In this document: positions 13,877-26,397 of the stretch, piece by piece
Layout of the letters: each line of letters starts with the position of its first letter
Numbering within the stretch: the stretch's first letter is position 1
IMG/VR virus record: IMGVR_UViG_3300027799_000002
Span: 1 to 34,007 of that record
Strand: one strand, 5' to 3'
DNA: 34,007 nucleotides
Source: a virus
Program-made: the position numbers and the translations under genes
Notes under the pieces: model-generated
Seen by the model: only the letters and a program-made list of their open reading frames with translations
Databases searched by the model: none
Told to the model about the DNA's origin: nothing

Positions 13877-14467
13877 TTATCTTGAAATGACAGCATCCTC
13901 CGGTTTTAACGGTAACGGTTTCTCTCCGATTAATGCCCGGAAATTCACAGGAACGAGGGCGCGTTGTTCACGTTCGCGATCTGCGCTGGTTGCGAGGGCT
14001 TGCCGCATGGCCAATGGGAGTTGCGCCCGCGCTTGTTGCGCGGCCTGGTATGCCTCGAAAAATCTCAGGAAATTTGACCGCAAAAGATCCTCATTCTCGG
14101 ATTGACGGATCGCCTGCCAACCGAATGACCGGGCGGCATCCGCCACGAAGGGCGGGAGGGACGCGCGTTTCCCTAATTGCACGGCTCGCAGAATCATGCC
14201 CCAGGCGTCCAGTGCCGTCATCTGGCTTTCCGGGTTCGCAAACGCCGCGCAATGGCGGCGAATATCCGCAATCGTTGGCGGCCATTCCGACTGCATGATA
14301 TGCTTCGCGATGGCATCAGATACCTCGCGATATGATAGATCCGCCAACATCGTAGTCCACGCCTGAACAAACGCCGCCAATTCCTGCGTCTCAGACGGCA
14401 GTTTGAATTTTCCCTGATAAAATTGAGAAATCAGGGTAACAACTTTCAACGTTTCCGGTTTTGTCAT
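13877..14467 (-). CDS. Helicase loader/inhibitor of the SPP1 G39P type
   Basis: About 196 aa. The N-terminal 75 residues ('LKVVTLISQFYQGKFKLPSETQELAAFVQAWTTMLADLSY', 'IADIRRH') fit the G39P family, which binds the replicative DnaB-type helicase and brings it to the initiator at the origin. The C-terminal half is a helical Ala/Gln-rich extension. The start at 14467 has GAGG at proper spacing; the ATG at 14476 directly abuts that site. It overlaps the initiator gene, reproducing the SPP1 order gene 38 (initiator), gene 39 (loader). No helicase gene is visible, so the host helicase is presumably used. Confidence 0.75.
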   Translation of the reverse strand: MTKPETLKVVTLISQFYQGKFKLPSETQELAAFVQAWTTMLADLSYREVSDAIAKHIMQSEWPPTIADIRRHCAAFANPESQMTALDAWGMILRAVQLGKRASLPPFVADAARSFGWQAIRQSENEDLLRSNFLRFFEAYQAAQQARAQLPLAMRQALATSADREREQRALVPVNFRALIGEKPLPLKPEDAVISR

Positions 14468-15326
14468 CTTGTCCATCCTCTAAAATAATTATGTTGTCGT
14501 TCTCGTCAAACCGCAACCGCGCCATCGCGTCCAGCGTTTTGCGGAATGGTGTGCGATCATCTTTTTCATATTTCTTGGCCGGTTGTCCAGGTACAATGCC
14601 CTTTTTGCGGTCAGCATCAATCCATGACCGCAGTCCCGCATAATGATTGGAAATTGGTCTTTCAGGGTGGTTGATCTGCCAGGCTGACATTGATTCAATC
14701 AAGCCATGCAACGCGATATCGGCTTTGCCGTTGAGTGTCGGAAAGGATGCCTTGAGATATTCCAATAGCTTTTTTTGCTCTATCTCAGAAAGATGAACGT
14801 TCTGAAACTCTCCGAAGACTGGAAAAGAATTTCGAGAGGGAAGCACGGGGGGGGCGGGGGGCTGTTCGCTTTGCCGCTCTTGCGGCTCCCCCTCCCCCTC
14901 TCTTTCTTTCTTGTTAATTCTTTCTTGTTTAAGATCATGATCATGAGAGACATTTTTGTCCATAGATATAGACATTTTGGGGGATACCCTATGGACATTT
15001 TTGTCCATAGATATAGACATTTTTGGGGATACCCTATCACCTCTTTTGCTATAATTCAGGGTAATTTCACGACGATTTCCCATTTTTTTGTTAATTTTGA
15101 TATTCACGTGTCCTGCTTTTTGTAATAAAAGCATGAGCCGAGAAACTTGTTTAACTGACAAATCAAATACTCGCGTAAAGTATTGATTCCCAGCATAGCA
15201 TATACCTTCCTTATCACATAATGCAGAAATTTCGGAATATAATAGACGGGCCATCGGGGGAATTGAAGAATCATAACGAACTACGGCAGGAAGGATTGCC
15301 CAAAATCCTGGTTTTTCATTATCCAT
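14391..15326 (-). CDS. Replication initiator with N-terminal winged helix
   Basis: 311 aa from MDNEKPGFWAILPAVVRYD; the ATG at 15326 follows a GAGAGAAAA site. The N-terminal 85 residues form the helix-turn-helix typical of phage initiators ('SSIPPMARLLYSEISALCDKEG', 'VSRLMLLLQKAGHVNIKI'). Two tandem 15-residue repeats (RVSPKMSISMDKNVH, then nearly the same again) follow at about residues 96-126, then a low-complexity acidic/Pro linker, then a DnaD-like C-terminus. It starts 8 nt inside the stop of the upstream regulator. By analogy with SPP1 gene 38 or lambda O it should bind an origin, and its own internal DNA repeats are a candidate. Confidence 0.8.
   Translation of the reverse strand: MDNEKPGFWAILPAVVRYDSSIPPMARLLYSEISALCDKEGICYAGNQYFTRVFDLSVKQVSRLMLLLQKAGHVNIKINKKMGNRREITLNYSKRGDRVSPKMSISMDKNVHRVSPKMSISMDKNVSHDHDLKQERINKKEREGEGEPQERQSEQPPAPPVLPSRNSFPVFGEFQNVHLSEIEQKKLLEYLKASFPTLNGKADIALHGLIESMSAWQINHPERPISNHYAGLRSWIDADRKKGIVPGQPAKKYEKDDRTPFRKTLDAMARLRFDENDNIIILEDGQDDKTGNVESCYPDFSILSGKIQTAV
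14949..15037. repeat. Two tandem 45-bp repeats within the initiator gene; candidate origin
   Basis: Two 44-nt copies (14949-14992 and 14994-15037), differing by one base, at a 45-nt period, so the reading frame is kept. Each copy holds the dyad GTC-CATAGATATA-GAC and a GGGgatACCC dyad. Iterons inside the initiator gene are how lambda (gene O) and SPP1 (gene 38) specify their origins; that these repeats act so is inference. Confidence 0.5.
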
Positions 15327-15522
15327 TGTATTTTCTCTCAGATTGCAATGATAGGGATGATTGGGATATATTAGCATGTTTCGCCTTTTCTTCATCGATA
15401 AACTCATTTACTAGGCGAAGTAAAACATCTGACATGCCACCAAAACGAGCGGAGACTGCCTGGAATTGATCTTTAACATCAGAAGGAACTCTAAAATTTA
15501 TCACTTTAATTTTTGTCTTCAT
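15319..15522 (-). CDS. Ribbon-helix-helix-like regulator
   Basis: 67 aa from MKTKIKVINFRVPSDVKDQF. 'KVINFRVPSDVKDQFQAVSARFGGMSDVLLRLVNEFIDEEK' fits a ribbon-helix-helix repressor: a short strand, then two helices joined by a Gly-Met-Ser turn. A longer frame begins at 15546, but that ATG lies inside the promoter spacer. The promoter's predicted start site coincides with the ATG at 15522, so the mRNA is predicted leaderless. It is the first gene of the replication/packaging operon and may repress its own and the divergent promoter. Confidence 0.65.
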   Translation of the reverse strand: MKTKIKVINFRVPSDVKDQFQAVSARFGGMSDVLLRLVNEFIDEEKAKHANISQSSLSLQSERKYNG

Positions 15523-15528
15523 AGTTTT

Positions 15529-15557
15529 AATATATGATTTATACATACAAAAGTCAA
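15529..15557 (-). promoter_or_regulatory. Leftward promoter of the replication-packaging operon
   Basis: -35 TTGACT (15552-15557), 17-nt spacer, -10 TATATT (15529-15534). The expected start site (+1) is 15522, the A of the first ATG, so no leader is predicted. The divergent rightward promoter begins 25 bp away. Confidence 0.7.
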
Positions 15558-15610: not shown

Positions 15611-15616
15611 ATGGAC

Positions 15617-15925
15617 ATGCATGACACCTGTCAGACAATCCCCGAATGGCAAAAAATCCTTCACGCAAATTCAGTTGCGCATGGATGGTGGGAGACTTCC
15701 CGCCCCATCCCGGAAATTCTCTGCCTCATTCACTCTGAGGTTTCGGAGGCTCTAGAGGCATATCGTAACGGAGATGGGGCGAATTTCCGGGAAGAGTTGG
15801 CCGATATTGCTATTCGCCTGTTTGACGCCGCCGAAGCCTACGGCGTCGATCTGGACGCGGAGATACGCAAGAAGCACGCCTACAACCTCACACGCCCCTA
15901 TCGGCATGGCGGGAAGATAATCTAA
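15617..15925 (+). CDS. MazG-like nucleoside triphosphate pyrophosphohydrolase
   Basis: 102 aa. 'ILCLIHSEVSEALEAYRNG' and 'EELADIAIRLFDAAEAYGVDLDAEIRKKHAYN' supply the paired acidic helices (ExxE...ExxD) that bind magnesium in all-alpha NTP pyrophosphatases, which hydrolyse nucleoside triphosphates to monophosphate and pyrophosphate. In phages such enzymes sanitise nucleotide pools or lower the alarmone ppGpp. The ATG at 15611 is in frame but only one base from the -10 box; the ATG at 15617 matches the predicted transcription start, so it is preferred. Confidence 0.8.
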   Translation: MHDTCQTIPEWQKILHANSVAHGWWETSRPIPEILCLIHSEVSEALEAYRNGDGANFREELADIAIRLFDAAEAYGVDLDAEIRKKHAYNLTRPYRHGGKII

Positions 15926-16004
15926 TTCACCATACCGGCCAGATGTTTTCTCCTACGGAATCAAGCAAAGACAGGTATCAATGATAAATATTTGAAAATA
16001 TATC

Positions 16005-16032
16005 TTGACAAATAATCAAATAGGATTATTAT
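16005..16032 (+). promoter_or_regulatory. Rightward promoter
   Basis: -35 TTGACA (16005-16010), 16-nt spacer, -10 TATTAT (16027-16032). An inverted repeat GATTAT-N9-ATAATC (16024-16044) spans the -10 box and start site and may be an operator. It serves the gene at 16080. The gap from 15926 holds nothing else that I see. Confidence 0.7.
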
Positions 16033-16079
16033 AAAGCTATAATCACAAATTGATAATTTCAAAAACAGGAGAAAACATC

Positions 16080-16316
16080 ATGAAAGTGAAAGATTTAAAG
16101 AAATTGTTAGAAAATCTACCAGATGATGCACGAATTTTTGCATCACCTACGATTGCTGGCCTTCTGAATGTTACCAGCAACAGGCATATTCTCGCTATCA
16201 TTGACGTTGCAAAAACTGGATTTGACACGAAACCACATAAGGTAGCTAAAAGGATAGTGAAAAAAGAGATTAACCAAAAAGTTGATCCCAATTTTTTCAA
16301 ACGTGCAGAAGGCTGA
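16080..16316 (+). CDS. Small protein with a PDDA motif, unknown
   Basis: 78 aa from MKVKDLKKLLENLPDDARIF, with CAGGAG 8 nt before the ATG. The beginning 'VKDLKKLLENLPDDARIFASPTIAG' is a pattern common to short phage proteins of unknown function. The rest is basic ('HKVAKRIVKKEINQKVDPNFFKRAEG') with no catalytic motif. The gene follows a strong promoter with a possible operator. AT content is clearly higher than in the structural genes. Confidence 0.6.
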   Translation: MKVKDLKKLLENLPDDARIFASPTIAGLLNVTSNRHILAIIDVAKTGFDTKPHKVAKRIVKKEINQKVDPNFFKRAEG

Positions 16317-16350
16317 ACAATCCCAACATATTAGCGGAGTTAACGCAACA

Positions 16351-16608
16351 ATGACAAGAGGAGGAAAACGCATAGGGGCCGGACGGAAGCCCGGTTCCGT
16401 CAAACCACTAGCAGAAAAACACGTAGTTCGAAAACTCTATCGGTGGACAAAAGACGAATATCGGCGCATCAAACAAGCCGTCCAGAAATCAGAAATAATT
16501 GAATCGCAATTTGTCCGACTTGCTGTTATGGAAAAAATTGAAACAATACTAAATGATAGGCAGGATGGCGAACAACGTAATGCAACGGACGAGACCCAGT
16601 CCATCTAA
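16351..16608 (+). CDS. Small basic protein with GGKRIGAGRKPGS motif
   Basis: 85 aa from MTRGGKRIGAGRKPGSVKPL. The N-terminal Gly/Arg/Lys motif resembles the start of many phage small terminase-like and MobC/CopG-like proteins, where it contacts DNA backbone. 'TKDEYRRIKQAVQKSEIIESQFVRLAVMEKIE' fits the helices of a ribbon-helix-helix. A GGAG lies about 12 nt upstream. A regulatory or DNA-binding role is likely; the exact one is unknown. Confidence 0.55.
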   Translation: MTRGGKRIGAGRKPGSVKPLAEKHVVRKLYRWTKDEYRRIKQAVQKSEIIESQFVRLAVMEKIETILNDRQDGEQRNATDETQSI

Positions 16609-17360: not shown

Positions 17361-17600
17361 TTAATTTTTGCATTGCACCGCGGCCGGCGCAACGCCAAAT
17401 CGTTTGGCAATTGCGTTGATATGCTGCGGCGCTACTCCATTCTGCGATTGCATGATTCTCTTCATGTGCGCCAGGTGTAATTTGGCTTCCCCGGCTAAAA
17501 TTTCCATATCTACGCCTGAGTCTTTGGCGCGGAGATCATATTTTGCCGCCCACGCCGGATGGATTTTCTTCATCTCTAAGATAATTTCTGTAAATTTCAT
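17361..17600 (-). CDS. Small helix-turn-helix-like protein
   Basis: 79 aa, coupled to the exonuclease by ATGA (17597-17600). The C-terminal half, 'HLAHMKRIMQSQNGVAPQHINAIAKRFGVAPAAVQCKN', has the Ala-rich 'INAIAKRFGVAPAAV' pattern of a helix-turn-helix of the Xre type. The N-terminal half is a short amphipathic helix with no motif. A regulatory role is plausible but unproven. Confidence 0.5.
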   Translation of the reverse strand: MKFTEIILEMKKIHPAWAAKYDLRAKDSGVDMEILAGEAKLHLAHMKRIMQSQNGVAPQHINAIAKRFGVAPAAVQCKN

Positions 17601-18271
17601 AACCGCCCTCTCATCATTTTCTGGGCAACCCGTTCTGTCGCAAGACAGTCTATGATATTATACAACAGGATTGCCGCATGTTGCTCCGGGTTATTTGATT
17701 CAATCATTTCACCGATCACATCCCCCTCAATTGCCTTTGCGAAAGGAATGCCAAACTTGTCTGTTAGTTCAGACAGTTTGTAAAATTGCTTGTCTGAAAC
17801 TGAGAAATCCCTAAATTTAAGCATCGTGTCCGTATGTTTATACGTCCACAATGCATCAGGATTACTCAGATCATGAAATGCTATCCGAAACCGGAGTTTC
17901 GGAATGTCGAAATGCGCCCCGTTGTGCGTAATGAGACGCGTCGTTGTTGGGAATGTTGCAAGGACGGCGGCGCAAAAACCTTGCAACATCTCTCGTTCGG
18001 TCGTGAAGGTCAAGACGGCGATTCCGGCGGTCTGCAACATTGCTCGCGTTGCCGTGTCAAGATTGGCAGTGCTGAGAGAGACCGCCAAACCAGATAATCG
18101 CAAGCCGATACAAAAAATTGGCGCGGAATCTGTCAGGCCTCCCCTTAGACCATTTTGCTTGGCGGCAATCTTTTCCGGGTCTTTCAGATTCCCGGTCTTG
18201 GCCCATCGCCGTTCAATCTCCATTCCGTCCTTGCCAGGATTTCTGGTTTCAATGTCTATGACTATGTACAT
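17597..18271 (-). CDS. DnaQ-like 3'-5' exonuclease, DEDDy type
   Basis: 224 aa. ExoI is IDIET (residues 5-9), ExoII is HNGAHFDIPKL (middle of the chain), and ExoIII is YNIIDCLAT (Y-x3-D, near residue 205). Together they give the four acidic metal ligands and a tyrosine, so this is a DEDDy enzyme like the proofreading domain of family B polymerases. It would remove nucleotides from 3' ends during phage replication or repair. No polymerase domain is attached. The ATG has no SD; a 7-bp hairpin ends 9 nt upstream. Confidence 0.85.
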   Translation of the reverse strand: MYIVIDIETRNPGKDGMEIERRWAKTGNLKDPEKIAAKQNGLRGGLTDSAPIFCIGLRLSGLAVSLSTANLDTATRAMLQTAGIAVLTFTTEREMLQGFCAAVLATFPTTTRLITHNGAHFDIPKLRFRIAFHDLSNPDALWTYKHTDTMLKFRDFSVSDKQFYKLSELTDKFGIPFAKAIEGDVIGEMIESNNPEQHAAILLYNIIDCLATERVAQKMMRGRL

Positions 18272-18311: not shown

Positions 18312-18680
18312 TTACCGTCCCCAGCCTCGTTTACCGCCCCATCCCTGTTGTTTTTGCCATGCCTTTAGCGGGACTCCCTTGATGATAAGGGTTTCCATAA
18401 GGGCGAGTAATTTCTCTGGATTTGCGAATTCTGGGCCGAACTCTAAATGGACAGTTACGTTACCGATACTTGTTTCAAGCCCAATCGGGATTAAGATGCC
18501 ATTGGGTTGCGCCGCCTGCACTTGCGGAGCCTGGGATCTCCCCCATCCGCCAAATTCTCCTACCGATTGCATTGGTTGTGCCGATTGTACTGGTTGCGCT
18601 GCCTGCGCTTGTTGCATCATTGCGGTAAGCGCAGCAATTTGAGCGGTCAAATCTGTTGCTGTTGCTGTTGTATCTGACAT
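18312..18680 (-). CDS. Gln/Ala-rich protein with a C-terminal GWGGKRGWGR tail
   Basis: 122 aa. The N-terminal half is low-complexity, helical Thr/Ala/Gln/Pro ('LTAQIAALTAMMQQAQAAQP'). The centre is a folded-looking segment ('ILIPIGLETSIGNVTVHLEF', 'PEKLLALMETLIIKGVPLKAW'). The tail is Gly/Trp/Arg-rich. A basic, aromatic tail would suit single-stranded nucleic acid binding, and its neighbour is an exonuclease, but a function cannot be claimed. Its SD (a G6 run) lies within an inverted repeat. Confidence 0.5.
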   Translation of the reverse strand: MSDTTATATDLTAQIAALTAMMQQAQAAQPVQSAQPMQSVGEFGGWGRSQAPQVQAAQPNGILIPIGLETSIGNVTVHLEFGPEFANPEKLLALMETLIIKGVPLKAWQKQQGWGGKRGWGR

Positions 18681-18690
18681 ATGATTATTA

Positions 18691-18719
18691 TTCCCCCCGC
18701 AGGATTCCTGCGGAGGGAA
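18691..18719 (-). promoter_or_regulatory. 29-nt inverted repeat covering a ribosome-binding site
   Basis: TTCCCCCCGCAGGA/TCCTGCGGAGGGAA forms up to 14 bp (one wobble on the leftward RNA). The leftward strand's GGGGGG, about 13 nt before the ATG at 18680, is the closing arm, so folding would hide the likely SD. It fills most of the 55-nt gap between two genes. Confidence 0.45.
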
Positions 18720-18735
18720 TGCTCCTTGTGTTGTG

Positions 18736-19362
18736 TTAATTGATAGCCAGTTTTACCTTTTTCCCGTCATTTTCGAGGGAGAACGGGTGCTCCCCAGGAA
18801 AGGCCAGTCCCATCTGCTGAAGCCGATTTTCTAATTCCGCCAAAATCCCGTCTTCTTCATCTGGGATGATACCGGAAATCTCTGCCGTGCAATGGTTTCC
18901 TTCGGAAACCACAACGCAACAGTCCACAATTTCCGCAAACTCTGTGAACGCGACATTCCAGAACTCCGGGGCAAACCGATACTGTCCGGCGTCCAAAAAT
19001 GGGATCGCATCATGTGTGACCGGCTGCGCCGCCGTCACCGGATGTAAAAACTCTTCAATTTCGTCAATCATATCTACCAACTGATTGACGATAGCATTGC
19101 AATGCTCACTCGCCCTGAAATATACTTCCCTTCTTTTTCCTTCATATTCAAAGGATTTCCTGCGTAAATCACAATAAAGATTCACATATTTACCACGTTC
19201 TATCATCATCTCGTCTTGCAAGGCGATTAGCTCTCGCTCTGCATTATACGCAGAGACATCCGCCTCTTCTGCTGCGGCCTCTGAAGAAGCCGCCTGTTGC
19301 CACTGGTATGCTATCGCTGCTGCTTCCATTGCGAAACTCACCATTTTTTTGAAGTTTTTCAT
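18736..19362 (-). CDS. Helical protein, first gene of an antisense-covered operon; unknown
   Basis: 208 aa. The N-terminal 75 residues are Ala/Glu/Gln-rich and helical ('FAMEAAAIAYQWQQAASSEAAAEEADVSAYNAERELIALQDEMM'), a probable coiled coil; the remainder is acidic with two cysteines and predicted strands ('AEIVDCCVVVSEGNHCTAEISGI'). No replication or repressor family is recognised. There is no SD directly upstream; instead a strong SD with a tiny ORF lies about 30 nt further up, so translation may be coupled. A rightward promoter overlaps its start codon. I infer a tightly controlled regulator or replication accessory. Confidence 0.6.
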   Translation of the reverse strand: MKNFKKMVSFAMEAAAIAYQWQQAASSEAAAEEADVSAYNAERELIALQDEMMIERGKYVNLYCDLRRKSFEYEGKRREVYFRASEHCNAIVNQLVDMIDEIEEFLHPVTAAQPVTHDAIPFLDAGQYRFAPEFWNVAFTEFAEIVDCCVVVSEGNHCTAEISGIIPDEEDGILAELENRLQQMGLAFPGEHPFSLENDGKKVKLAIN

Positions 19363-19390
19363 TGACTTTTTAAGGTTAGGATCCTATATT
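19362..19390 (+). promoter_or_regulatory. Rightward promoter for a predicted antisense RNA
   Basis: -35 TTGACT (19362-19367), 17-nt spacer, -10 TATATT (19385-19390); start near 19397. It strongly resembles the oppositely oriented promoter at 19495-19523 over about 30 bases, as if an inverted copy. No open reading frame follows before the terminator. Confidence 0.65.
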
Positions 19391-19401
19391 ATTCATAGCA
19401 T
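19376..19401 (-). other. Minimal leader ORFs behind a strong SD
   Basis: On the leftward strand AAGGAG (19410-19415) is followed by ATG-CTA-TGA (19401-19393) and the overlapping ATG of a 6-codon ORF, MNNIGS, ending at 19376. The next real start is at 19362. The layout resembles a leader peptide coupled to a downstream gene. Confidence 0.35.
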
Positions 19402-19469
19402 CCTACCTACTCCTTCTGTTGTTGTTGCCCTTGCGTTTTACTTGGCCGGTTTAACGCAGGGGCTTTTTT
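19397..19469 (+). ncRNA. Predicted antisense RNA of about 73 nt
   Basis: It starts from the rightward promoter at 19362-19390 and ends in the intrinsic terminator at 19427-19469. It is fully complementary to the leader of the leftward mRNA (start near 19488), including its SD and tiny ORFs. Such an arrangement is known from plasmid copy control (CopA/CopT with the leader peptide tap in R1). No coding capacity is seen. Confidence 0.55.
19427..19469 (+). terminator. Intrinsic terminator, rightward
   Basis: GCCCTTGCGTT pairs with AACGCAGGGGC (11 bp including one wobble) around a 15-nt loop and is followed by six Ts. It is directional: leftward there is no U-tract. No rightward gene precedes it, so the only transcript it can end is the predicted antisense RNA. 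Confidence 0.8.
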
Positions 19470-19480
19470 CTTTCCATTTC

Positions 19481-19500
19481 TATCTTATAGCTATAAGATA
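19481..19500. promoter_or_regulatory. Perfect 20-bp dyad operator (copy 1) over the leftward -10 box
   Basis: TATCTTATAGCTATAAGATA is a perfect palindrome. On the leftward strand its first six bases are the -10 box. The same element recurs at 19672-19691 and 25272-25291 in the same relation to the -10 of two other promoters. Confidence 0.75.
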
Positions 19501-19523
19501 GGATTCCTACCCAAAAAAGTCAA
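19495..19523 (-). promoter_or_regulatory. Leftward promoter of the 19.4-16.7 kb operon
   Basis: -35 TTGACT (19518-19523), 17-nt spacer, -10 TATCTT (19495-19500), start near 19488. The operator covers the -10 and start site. Between here and 19648 I see no further gene or signal. Confidence 0.75.
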
Positions 19524-19648
19524 GGAAATAATGCAAATTCGTAAAAATAATTTATGATTTCCTCTGTTCTTTTCCTGACTTACCTTACAAATCAAGCAAC
19601 ACCAGGAAAGCAAAAATGATAGAATTATGACAGATTCGTGGCGGAGTC

Positions 19649-19677
19649 TTGACAAGACCACTCATCAAACCTATCTT
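19649..19677 (+). promoter_or_regulatory. parM promoter
   Basis: -35 TTGACA (19649-19654), 17-nt spacer, -10 TATCTT (19672-19677), start near 19684. The -10 is the left arm of operator copy 2 (19672-19691, TATCTTATAATTGTAAGACA). The leader to the ATG at 19759 contains further TAAGAT repeats. Confidence 0.75.
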
Positions 19678-19684
19678 ATAATTG

Positions 19685-19739
19685 TAAGACAGACAATAAG
19701 ATAATAATAAGATAGATAATAGCATGATGCCCGTAAGAT
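19685..19739. repeat. TAAGAY direct repeats before parM; candidate centromere
   Basis: TAAGAC (19685), TAAGAT (19697), TAAGAT (19708) and TAAGAT (19734) occur at intervals of 12, 11 and 26 bp. ParR proteins of plasmids such as R1 bind arrays of about 11-bp direct repeats next to the parM promoter. Only a few copies are present, so this is a weak candidate. Confidence 0.4.
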
Positions 19740-19758: not shown

Positions 19759-20727
19759 ATGGATAAACTTGGGGCGGATTTGGGGTTTTTCCAGTCGAAA
19801 TTTACGACTGGAGACCTTGTTGAAACCTTTCAAAGCGTAGTAGGGTACGCGGCCGGGAGTATGATGTCAGTTTCTCCATCACAGTCAATCCTTTTTGCAA
19901 ATGGCGTCGCTGTCGGAGAGGCGGCGCTACAATACGCAGCCCCGGCCAATATCGTCGCGCATAGTGATGATGATTGGCTTAATTCGAAAGAGATTACGTA
20001 TCTTTTTCAAGCGGGCATGGCGTCCGTTTTTCCGGCGAATGGCGTATTACGGTCGATCAAGGTGGTTTGCGCCTTACCGATCAATCTCTATAAGTATTCA
20101 CGCGGCTTGTTATCAGAGCATCTTTCGCAGGTTCATCAATTCTCGTTGGCCGACGGCCGCGATTATATGATTACGGCGGAAGTGCGCGAGATTCCGCAGG
20201 CCTACGCGACGCTTTGCGGATTATTTTTGAATGACGCTGGCATGCCGGTATCGAAAATGGCGATGGAAATGGTAGGAGTTATTGACATCGGTGGACGCGA
20301 TTTGAATTTGTTGATCTCGGAGGGATTCCGGGATAACAAAAACAAATCAGATACCTACCATAATGGCGTTTGGACGCTCATTGATTCCCTGCGCGTGGCA
20401 TTGACCGAGGAATTTGGCCGCCCATCGCTGGACAAGTATGAGACAGAAACCGCGTTGCGTTCTGGGCAATTTTGGCATGGCGGCAAGTATCACGCTATTG
20501 CCGAGATAATCGCCGTCCATAAGGCCGCCTTTGTTTCACAAATCCAGGCGCATGTTGCAGGGTTATGGGGTGATGATGTGCATCGCCTCAAAAAAATCTA
20601 CATCACTGGCGGCGGGGCATTATTGATAGGCGAGGAATTGCGGGAATGTTATCCACAATCGGAAATTGTCGCGTCTCCCGTGTCAAGTAACTGCGCGGGC
20701 GCATGGAAATTTGCGCAGCGGAAATAG
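19759..20727 (+). CDS. parM: ParM-like actin ATPase for DNA segregation
   Basis: 322 aa from the ATG at 19759, chosen for the GGGGGG 5 nt upstream (the ATG at 19738 lacks an SD). Actin-fold motifs: phosphate-1 'LGADLGFFQSKF' at the N-terminus, phosphate-2 'GVIDIGGRDLNLL' (near residue 175), and adenosine-binding 'IYITGGGALLIGEEL' near the C-terminus. ParM filaments push plasmid copies apart, with ParR linking them to a centromere. The promoter has an operator. In a phage this points to maintenance as a low-copy episome, or to positioning DNA inside the cell as some phage actin-like proteins do. Confidence 0.85.
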   Translation: MDKLGADLGFFQSKFTTGDLVETFQSVVGYAAGSMMSVSPSQSILFANGVAVGEAALQYAAPANIVAHSDDDWLNSKEITYLFQAGMASVFPANGVLRSIKVVCALPINLYKYSRGLLSEHLSQVHQFSLADGRDYMITAEVREIPQAYATLCGLFLNDAGMPVSKMAMEMVGVIDIGGRDLNLLISEGFRDNKNKSDTYHNGVWTLIDSLRVALTEEFGRPSLDKYETETALRSGQFWHGGKYHAIAEIIAVHKAAFVSQIQAHVAGLWGDDVHRLKKIYITGGGALLIGEELRECYPQSEIVASPVSSNCAGAWKFAQRK

Positions 20728-20730
20728 GAT

Positions 20731-20817
20731 GTGGCGGGGCAATTTGACAGAGCCGTCCGTCGCCAGCGAAAAGTATGGTATGAGGGCGGTCATCGGTTGC
20801 CCCTGCTCAAAAAATGA
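20731..20817 (+). CDS. Possible 28-aa ORF between parM and the ParR-like gene
   Basis: GTG start with AGGA only a few bases upstream; reads MAGQFDRAVRRQRKVWYEGG and then HRLPLLKK, ending on a TGA that overlaps the next ATG (ATGA). It is basic. It might merely couple translation of the next gene, which has no SD of its own. Confidence 0.3.
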   Translation: MAGQFDRAVRRQRKVWYEGGHRLPLLKK

Positions 20818-21167
20818 AAAAAACGAAAACGAAAAAATATATCCTGACGATTGCTTGGCGGGAATCGGAATTTCCAGGCGTAACCGCCGAATATCTGCGA
20901 ATTGAACACCAGATCAAATCTGGTCAGGACGCGATGCTCCGTGATTGTATCCTGCCACACGCCGAAGCATGGTTGAAATCTAAAAAACCGATGCCATTGC
21001 AATCACAAACGGCAAACTTGGCCCGCCTGGAATCGCAAGTGGATGAAATGTTGCGGCTGTTGCGTAAAGGGAAATTTATCGTAGAATCGCAAACGGAAGA
21101 TGCGGAGACATCCGAATTGACGCCAGATGAACAAGCCCGACTCCTGTCGGCGCTTGATAGTTTGTAA
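20814..21167 (+). CDS. Putative ParR-like partition adaptor
   Basis: 117 aa. Begins with a basic strand-like stretch ('MKKTKTKKYILTIAWRES') followed by helices ('IEHQIKSGQDAMLRDCILPHAEAWLKSKK') and a charged, acidic C-terminus ('LARLESQVDEMLRLLRKGKF', 'ETSELTPDEQARLLSALDSL'). Size, order after parM, a possible N-terminal ribbon-helix-helix and an acidic tail (which in ParR contacts the ParM filament) all fit ParR. ParR families are very divergent, so the call is from context. Confidence 0.55.
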   Translation: MKKTKTKKYILTIAWRESEFPGVTAEYLRIEHQIKSGQDAMLRDCILPHAEAWLKSKKPMPLQSQTANLARLESQVDEMLRLLRKGKFIVESQTEDAETSELTPDEQARLLSALDSL

Positions 21168-25249: not shown

Positions 25250-25291
25250 TTGACAAATTAAAAATATAGCCTATCTTATGGCTATAAGGAA
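25250..25291 (+). promoter_or_regulatory. Rightward promoter with operator copy 3
   Basis: -35 TTGACA (25250-25255), 16-nt spacer, -10 TATCTT (25272-25277). The operator TATCTTATGGCTATAAGGAA (25272-25291) matches copy 1 in 17 of 20 positions and again covers the -10 and start site. It drives the small genes from 25337. Confidence 0.75.
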
Positions 25292-25336
25292 AGAAGGAAG
25301 TCATTAACATCATCAAAAAAGGGAAGGAGAAACATC

Positions 25337-25516: not shown

Positions 25517-25737
25517 TGGAAACATTACAAAAGCTCTACGATAGCGAGATAAATTTTAGCGTATCATGCTTTTGGGATGGCGGAATTGATGTAAAAATAG
25601 GAGATCCCTTAAATGGAGTTAAGGCGACGGCCTGTTTCCGCACGATCTCAGAAGTAATTGAATGGCTAAATTACAAGGCCGTTGAATTATATCCGCAATC
25701 AGAATTTACTAACGATATAAAAGGATGGCGAATATGA
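25516..25737 (+). CDS. Small protein, unknown
   Basis: 73 aa; the start overlaps the preceding stop (TAATG), so it is coupled. 'INFSVSCFWDGGIDVKIGDP' suggests beta strands with a Gly-rich turn, then 'VKATACFRTISEVIEWLNYKAVELYPQSEF' as a helix. It ends in an ATGA overlap with the next gene. No family recognised. Confidence 0.55.
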   Translation: METLQKLYDSEINFSVSCFWDGGIDVKIGDPLNGVKATACFRTISEVIEWLNYKAVELYPQSEFTNDIKGWRI

Positions 25738-25958
25738 AACGTAGGCGTGGGGCAAAGCCAGGAGACCGGCGCGCTCTCAAAACCGACGCAGAGCGGAAAC
25801 CGCGGTCGCTGTACGTCCGGTTTACTAAGAGCGATGCCGCCCGGTTCGCCGCTGTACTGAAGGATTATGAAACTGCCGCAGATCTCATTCGCGCCGCAAC
25901 GCTCACAGAAATTGAACGACGCGAACAAAGGCCAAACGTTAATGTAAGGGAATCATAA
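25734..25958 (+). CDS. Small basic protein, ribbon-helix-helix-like
   Basis: 74 aa from MKRRRGAKPGDRRALKTDAE, coupled by ATGA to the upstream gene. 'RSLYVRFTKSDAARFAAVLKDYETAADLIRAATLTEIERRE' gives a strand and two helices as in ribbon-helix-helix DNA-binding proteins. A candidate repressor for the shared operators at 19.48, 19.67 and 25.27 kb. Assignment is by pattern. Confidence 0.5.
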   Translation: MKRRRGAKPGDRRALKTDAERKPRSLYVRFTKSDAARFAAVLKDYETAADLIRAATLTEIERREQRPNVNVRES

Positions 25959-26341: not shown

Positions 26342-26370
26342 TTGACAAATCTATCAGCCCTTCTCATAAT
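26342..26370 (+). promoter_or_regulatory. Promoter of the head operon, overlapping a terminator
   Basis: -35 TTGACA (26342-26347), 17-nt spacer, -10 CATAAT (26365-26370); +1 near 26377, next to the ATG at 26378. The -10 lies in the left arm of a terminator hairpin, so a new transcript would lack that arm. Confidence 0.55.
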
Positions 26371-26397
26371 ATAAATTATGAGAGGGGCTTCTTTTTT
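26357..26397 (+). terminator. Intrinsic terminator of the 25.3-26.3 kb operon
   Basis: GCCCTTCTCATAAT pairs with ATTATGAGAGGGGC (14 bp with one wobble) around a 4-nt loop, followed by TTCTTTTTT. It ends transcripts coming from the left while leaving those starting at about 26377 uninterrupted. Confidence 0.8.

Follow-up and report, generated by a model that had tools for sequence, protein, structure and literature searches.

Why should a promoter that points against the start of a phage operon be followed by a terminator and by no gene of its own? The question arises at the head of a leftward operon in a sequence of 34,007 bases (the window), which is the whole of IMG/VR record IMGVR_UViG_3300027799_000002, a record that carries no completeness estimate. 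Its source is probably a virus of bacteria with a plasmid lifestyle, and a plasmid-like prophage is likely because a ParM-like gene adjoins the region.

The first gene of the operon (18736-19362, leftward) encodes a 208-aa protein, or one of 197 aa if translation starts at 19329. Searches of Pfam, PHROG and other family profiles returned no match beyond chance for this protein, and its structure model (pLDDT 42) was too poor for structure search. An exonuclease-like gene (17597-18271, PHROG 403) is among those downstream of it. At 18690-18720, 15-nt arms that are 93% complementary hide the Shine-Dalgarno (SD) sequence of a 122-aa gene at 18680, forming a second possible translational control hairpin within the operon. 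The replication initiator-like gene (14391-15407), recognized by a PHROG-type profile match, is separated from the operon by three rightward ORFs (15611-16608); a leftward promoter-like site lies close to it (15557-15529). The operon probably excludes the initiator, and read-through from the operon into the initiator gene is possible. Within the initiator-like gene, two 45-bp tandem copies (14949-15038, 96% alike) may represent origin iterons. Over positions 1-34007, the cumulative GC skew falls from 8 kb to a minimum near 20 kb; this trend tracks gene orientation and may also mark the direction of replication.

A predicted antisense RNA and the leader it faces

The rightward promoter, designated P_right, is a sigma-70-type sequence at 19362-19390, in which the hexamers TTGACT (-35, 19362-19367) and TATATT (-10, 19385-19390) are separated by a 17-nt spacer and match the consensus at 10 of 12 positions. 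Its predicted start lies at about 19397. It is followed by a hairpin at 19427-19463, composed of an 11-bp stem (GCCCTTGCGTT/AACGCAGGGGC) and three inner pairs, and then by a T6 run at 19464-19469, with no rightward gene in the interval. Both elements had been proposed in a first-pass annotation of this DNA and were recovered here as described. The predicted transcript of ~73 nt (19397-19469, rightward) comprises a 5' tail (19397-19426), the stem-loop and a terminal U6 run. Folding of 19397-19470 (74 nt) gave -22.5 kcal/mol, with a z-score of -3.0 relative to shuffled sequences.

In a window-wide search, the terminator at 19427-19469 ranked in the top two terminator-like hairpins for strength; a standard scan restricted to loops of 3-8 nt missed it because its apical region spans 15 nt. 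Elsewhere in the window, a very strong rightward terminator-like palindrome (26356-26392, -23.2 kcal/mol, T6) overlaps both the listed start of a portal-like ORF and the -10 element of a TTGACA-17-CATAAT site, and is a possible late-gene control site. The window contains a single case in which a promoter matching at least 10 of 12 positions has a terminator of this kind no more than 150 nt downstream; shuffled windows averaged 0.07 cases, with one found in 4 of 60 shuffles. This pair alone is a roughly 1-in-15 chance event per window, suggestive and not conclusive by itself; moreover, here as in the other chance estimates, the shuffles concern features spotted post hoc by a reader, which somewhat overstates significance.

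Further evidence comes from the strandedness of the stem, whose predicted energy is -21.3 kcal/mol in the rightward RNA versus -14.2 kcal/mol in the leftward RNA. The stem is unbroken only in the rightward RNA, as G-U pairs there correspond to A.C mismatches in the leftward one, an asymmetry carried by just two positions. It is moderate evidence in favor of a rightward transcript, and together with the position of the U-run it points toward transcription in that direction. Most of the first ~30 nt of this RNA (CCUACUCCUUCU) stay unpaired in the predicted fold, and this tail includes sequence complementary to both the leader SD AAGGAG and the first AUG. A promoter and an end of its own, on the strand opposite the target, are present at the sequence level, and the RNA likely belongs to the cis-encoded antisense class. 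Its apical region contains CUUG/UUGG matches to the YUNR motif, a weak indication given how frequent the motif is by chance. Rfam covariance models gave no match to antisense RNA families at the gathering score; the best hit to any known family was a chance-level match to NsiR1 (21.3 bits against the 39 needed). A role as a replication primer is not favored either, the likelier origin being the 45-bp tandem repeat in the initiator-like gene.

The leader of the leftward mRNA (19488-19363) is complementary to the predicted RNA over 19397-19469. The first-pass annotation had remarked on full complementarity, which is automatic for overlapping opposite transcripts. The leader folds with a z-score of -3.8 relative to shuffled sequences and carries the SD AAGGAG at 19415-19410 (-9.0 kcal/mol), a two-codon ORF ATG-CTA-TGA (19401-19393) and an overlapping ORF, MNNIGS (19396-19376), all of which the annotation had named. 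A second leader hairpin (19374-19407) pairs both small start codons; little of either AUG stays single-stranded in the predicted fold. The mini-ORF is nevertheless weak evidence, since the window has seven instances, on the two strands combined, of a strong SD followed by an ATG and an ORF no longer than 10 codons; the mini-ORF and its SD may be incidental.

In plasmid R1, the tiny leader ORF tap precedes repA. The first-pass annotation had drawn on this case and had noted that the next gene in the phage lacks an SD. The latter is correct for the ATG at 19362 (+0.2 to -0.4 kcal/mol), but an in-frame ATG at 19329 is preceded by the SD GGTGAG (-7.4 kcal/mol), which would lie outside the coverage of the antisense RNA. 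From this alternative start the gene could be translated without reinitiation after the mini-ORF, so that coupling through the mini-ORFs, which are present, is uncertain. Attenuation of the kind seen in pT181 and pIP501 was rejected, as the leader hairpins are not followed by a U-run on the leftward strand.

Inverted promoters and operator-like palindromes

The leftward promoter, P_left, taken here as an early promoter, occupies 19523-19495 on the opposite strand, with TTGACT at -35, a 17-nt spacer and TATCTT at -10 (9 of 12 consensus positions) and a predicted start at about 19488. The start sites of P_right and P_left face each other ~92 bp apart. The promoters are embedded in the two 45-nt arms of an inverted repeat, the right arm (19348-19392, rightward) carrying P_right and the left arm (19493-19537, leftward) carrying P_left. 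Separated by 100 nt, the arms agree at 35 of 45 positions, a score equalled in one of 500 shuffles of the region. The earlier descriptions of a facing leftward promoter and of the two promoters as inverted copies are therefore both borne out. Each spacer contains a palindrome that we termed element A, TAGGATCCTA at 19377-19386 in P_right and TAGGATTCCTA at 19499-19509 in P_left, and an exact TAGGA..TCCTA is confined to these two sites across the window. Both promoters retain the 17-nt spacer together with this motif, whereas their flanking sequence differs.

A second palindrome, element B, had gone unnoticed in the first reading. It is a perfect 22-bp palindrome (CTATCTTATAGCTATAAGATAG, 19480-19501) that covers the -10 element and the start of P_left. 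Copies matching at 18 of 22 positions lie over the -10 element of the parM promoter (19671-19692; promoter TTGACA-17-TATCTT, 19649-19677) and over that of a third promoter (25271-25292; TTGACA-16-TATCTT from 25250). Matches of at least 18 of 22 thus fall on three promoters in the window, compared with none in 100 shuffles. P_right is absent from the best matches of the scan, and its equivalent stretch agrees with element B at 11 of 22 positions by eye, the second half being lost. This distribution suggests common regulation of P_left and the parM and 25250 promoters by a single DNA-binding protein that does not act on P_right. The operator-like palindrome also argues for transcriptional repression as an additional layer of control. 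Because element B is intact at P_left and degraded at P_right, a repressor could shut the operon while the antisense RNA stays on.

Candidates for the repressor, chosen by position or appearance, are the 117-aa protein encoded from 20814 and two small proteins (25725-25958 and 15319-15546). The third promoter precedes small ORFs that include the 25725-25958 gene, whose product is a possible ribbon-helix-helix protein, and for the 15319-15546 protein a weak resemblance to RelB/DinJ fell short of the cut-off (E 0.0016). PDB matches for the small possible ribbon-helix-helix proteins were attributed to chance.

The ParM-like actin gene expected of a type II partition system is present at 19759-20727 (rightward; the listed ORF begins at 19738, the likely start being 19759), and its product matched PHROG 691 (E 1.5e-26), the Pfam domains ALP_N and MreB-like_C, and pCBH ParM (3.8e-8). 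Between the parM promoter and parM lie rightward tandem repeats of ~12 bp (TAAGATAGATAA, 19685-19721), possibly a centromere (parC) or an operator array. The gene directly after parM (20814-21167, rightward) encodes the 117-aa protein and is a ParR candidate by position only; this protein had no Pfam or NCBIfam match, and its low-confidence structure model (pLDDT 58) was too poor for structure search. In type II partition systems, parC sites lie over the promoter of the partition genes. Element B and the tandem repeats are arranged over the parM promoter in just this way and might together form the centromere and autorepression site of the ParM system, to which P_left has been tied. We regard this possibility as tentative: the third copy of element B, at 25271, lies 4.5 kb past the end of parM, and the assignment of ParR is positional. 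It is also compatible with the antisense RNA, so that its probability does not subtract from that of the RNA.

Rival readings and the proposed mechanism

An unlikely alternative is that P_right serves mainly as a duplicated operator, contributing element A and half of element B to cooperative or looped repression of P_left, with a transcript that has no role. The confinement of the mismatch-free TAGGA..TCCTA to the two promoter spacers, and the spacing and likeness of the inverted arms, agree with such a function. A duplicated operator leaves unexplained, however, why a strong strand-specific terminator directly follows P_right and why both core hexamers have been retained. Convergent-promoter interference, in which P_right would act through transcription rather than through its RNA, is suggested by the facing start sites and is considerably less probable still: with its predicted end ~19 nt short of the P_left start, the P_right transcript would spare P_left from collisions, and interference would run mainly from P_left onto P_right. 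It is equally improbable that the hairpin serves the leftward mRNA as a 5' stabilizing or regulatory leader structure, with P_right and the T6 run incidental, since despite the better-than-shuffled folding of the leader and the second hairpin over the small start codons, the A.C mismatches interrupt the stem on the leftward strand and the U-run is correctly placed for the rightward RNA only.

The promoter, the gene-free terminator, the strand-asymmetric stem and the unpaired tail complementary to the SD are together best read as an antisense RNA acting on the leader, and to this extent the first-pass interpretation is supported. In its full form, the reading that we prefer holds that P_right makes an antisense RNA of ~73 nt that blocks the leftward leader, under a repressor acting on element B; judged from the sequence, we give it a probability slightly above one half (about 0.55). 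In the first layer of such a system, the repressor bound to element B would hold down P_left, the parM promoter and the 25250 promoter. The second layer would be provided by P_right, an inverted copy of P_left that has kept the core promoter and lost half of element B. Its RNA would end at its own terminator, short of the P_left start, and its tail would pair with the leader SD and the first start codon before zipping into the hairpin. Pairing would then either block translation or target the leaked leftward mRNA for degradation. Under strong P_left activity, leftward polymerases would cross P_right and shut it off. As P_left transcription would cross P_right while the terminator would stop polymerases from P_right, the switch would be asymmetric, with P_left winning once derepressed.

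The same features allow a more speculative proposal on origin, which we consider possible though doubtful. The antisense gene may have arisen by inverted duplication of the promoter of its own target, after which both copies kept element A and the target alone kept element B; one repressor would silence the operon, and RNA from the inverted twin would mop up leaked transcripts in a plasmid prophage.

Relation to known antisense systems

By anatomy, the closest known system is RNAII of plasmid pMV158, a 48-nt RNA made up of 17 unpaired nt and a terminator hairpin. It acts alongside the repressor CopG, and its binding is driven by the tail rather than by loop kissing (PMC4485353). The predicted phage RNA similarly combines a single-stranded 5' tail with one terminator hairpin near a translation start, with a putative repressor as the second layer. 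It is longer (~73 versus 48 nt) and has an 11-bp rather than an 8-bp stem. RNAII is encoded between copG and repB, upstream of the initiator gene, whereas the phage RNA lies in the 5' leader of an operon that opens with a gene of no known function; the ORF list and family profiles revealed no copG/repB rolling-circle arrangement at the phage site.

By biology, the closest counterpart is sar of phage P22, a phage antisense RNA that lowers ant translation within the immunity I region, where protein repressors are also encoded (PMC2629481, PMC13397905). Both cases involve a small phage-encoded antisense RNA (here predicted) that keeps a phage mRNA from being translated, and both regions involve protein repressors (here presumed); the phage sequence showed no relation to P22 in sequence or genes at this site. 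OOP of phage lambda is likewise a phage antisense RNA, of 77 nt, but it targets the cII mRNA close to its 3' end, via RNase III (PMC5415839), in contrast to the 5' leader position here.

The first-pass annotation had described a plasmid-like antisense switch on the leftward operon after the model of R1. The anatomy does fit an antisense RNA; the analogy to CopA, tap and repA finds little support. In R1, CopA/CopT acts through translational coupling to repA (PMC5415839), and the resemblance lies in an antisense hairpin opposed to a leader with a tiny ORF before a gene. The operon is probably without a replication initiator, which makes R1 a poor match: the first gene is the 208-aa orphan, the initiator-like gene lies behind the three rightward ORFs rather than directly downstream, and coupling is uncertain. 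Unlike CopA, moreover, the phage RNA would cover the mini-ORF SD and start codon. Plasmid prophages of mycobacteriophages carry a noncoding RNA beside parABS, in a region required for replication (PMC7157519). They share with this phage a temperate lifestyle (here probable), partition genes and an adjoining noncoding RNA (here predicted), but use ParABS, whereas the neighbor here is a ParM-like gene and the phage carries an initiator-like gene of its own.

Searches of phages, plasmids, viral contigs and genomes yielded no homolog of the region. The 208-aa gene, ParM, the exonuclease, the initiator and the capsid had no relatives in the viral contig collection, nor did the 208-aa gene and ParM in the genome contig collection, although these protein scans need exact 8-residue matches and would miss moderately diverged relatives. 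In the same scans, the terminase had relatives in four viruses only, at 63% identity or less. One contig (L003, 1-975) encodes a terminase 63% identical to that of the window, and the portal and capsid-like genes behind it appear dissimilar to those of the window, a possible mosaic exchange of the terminase. BLAST of the intergenic DNA gave only chance matches of 25-46 nt, and a promoter-arm pattern search found nothing. The palindrome pattern occurred in three viral contigs whose gene content, judged from ORF lists, shares nothing with the phage; a similar promoter sequence in one of them (L007) was taken as chance.

Antisense switches are known as a kind; what looks new here is an antisense promoter whose control sites are common to the promoter that it opposes. 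If the proposed reading is true, antisense RNA becomes a further layer of regulation in a probable plasmid prophage, from a virus without close relatives in the collections searched. Inverted copying of a target promoter would then offer a simple origin for antisense genes, and three phage promoters, that of parM included, would be linked through one operator.
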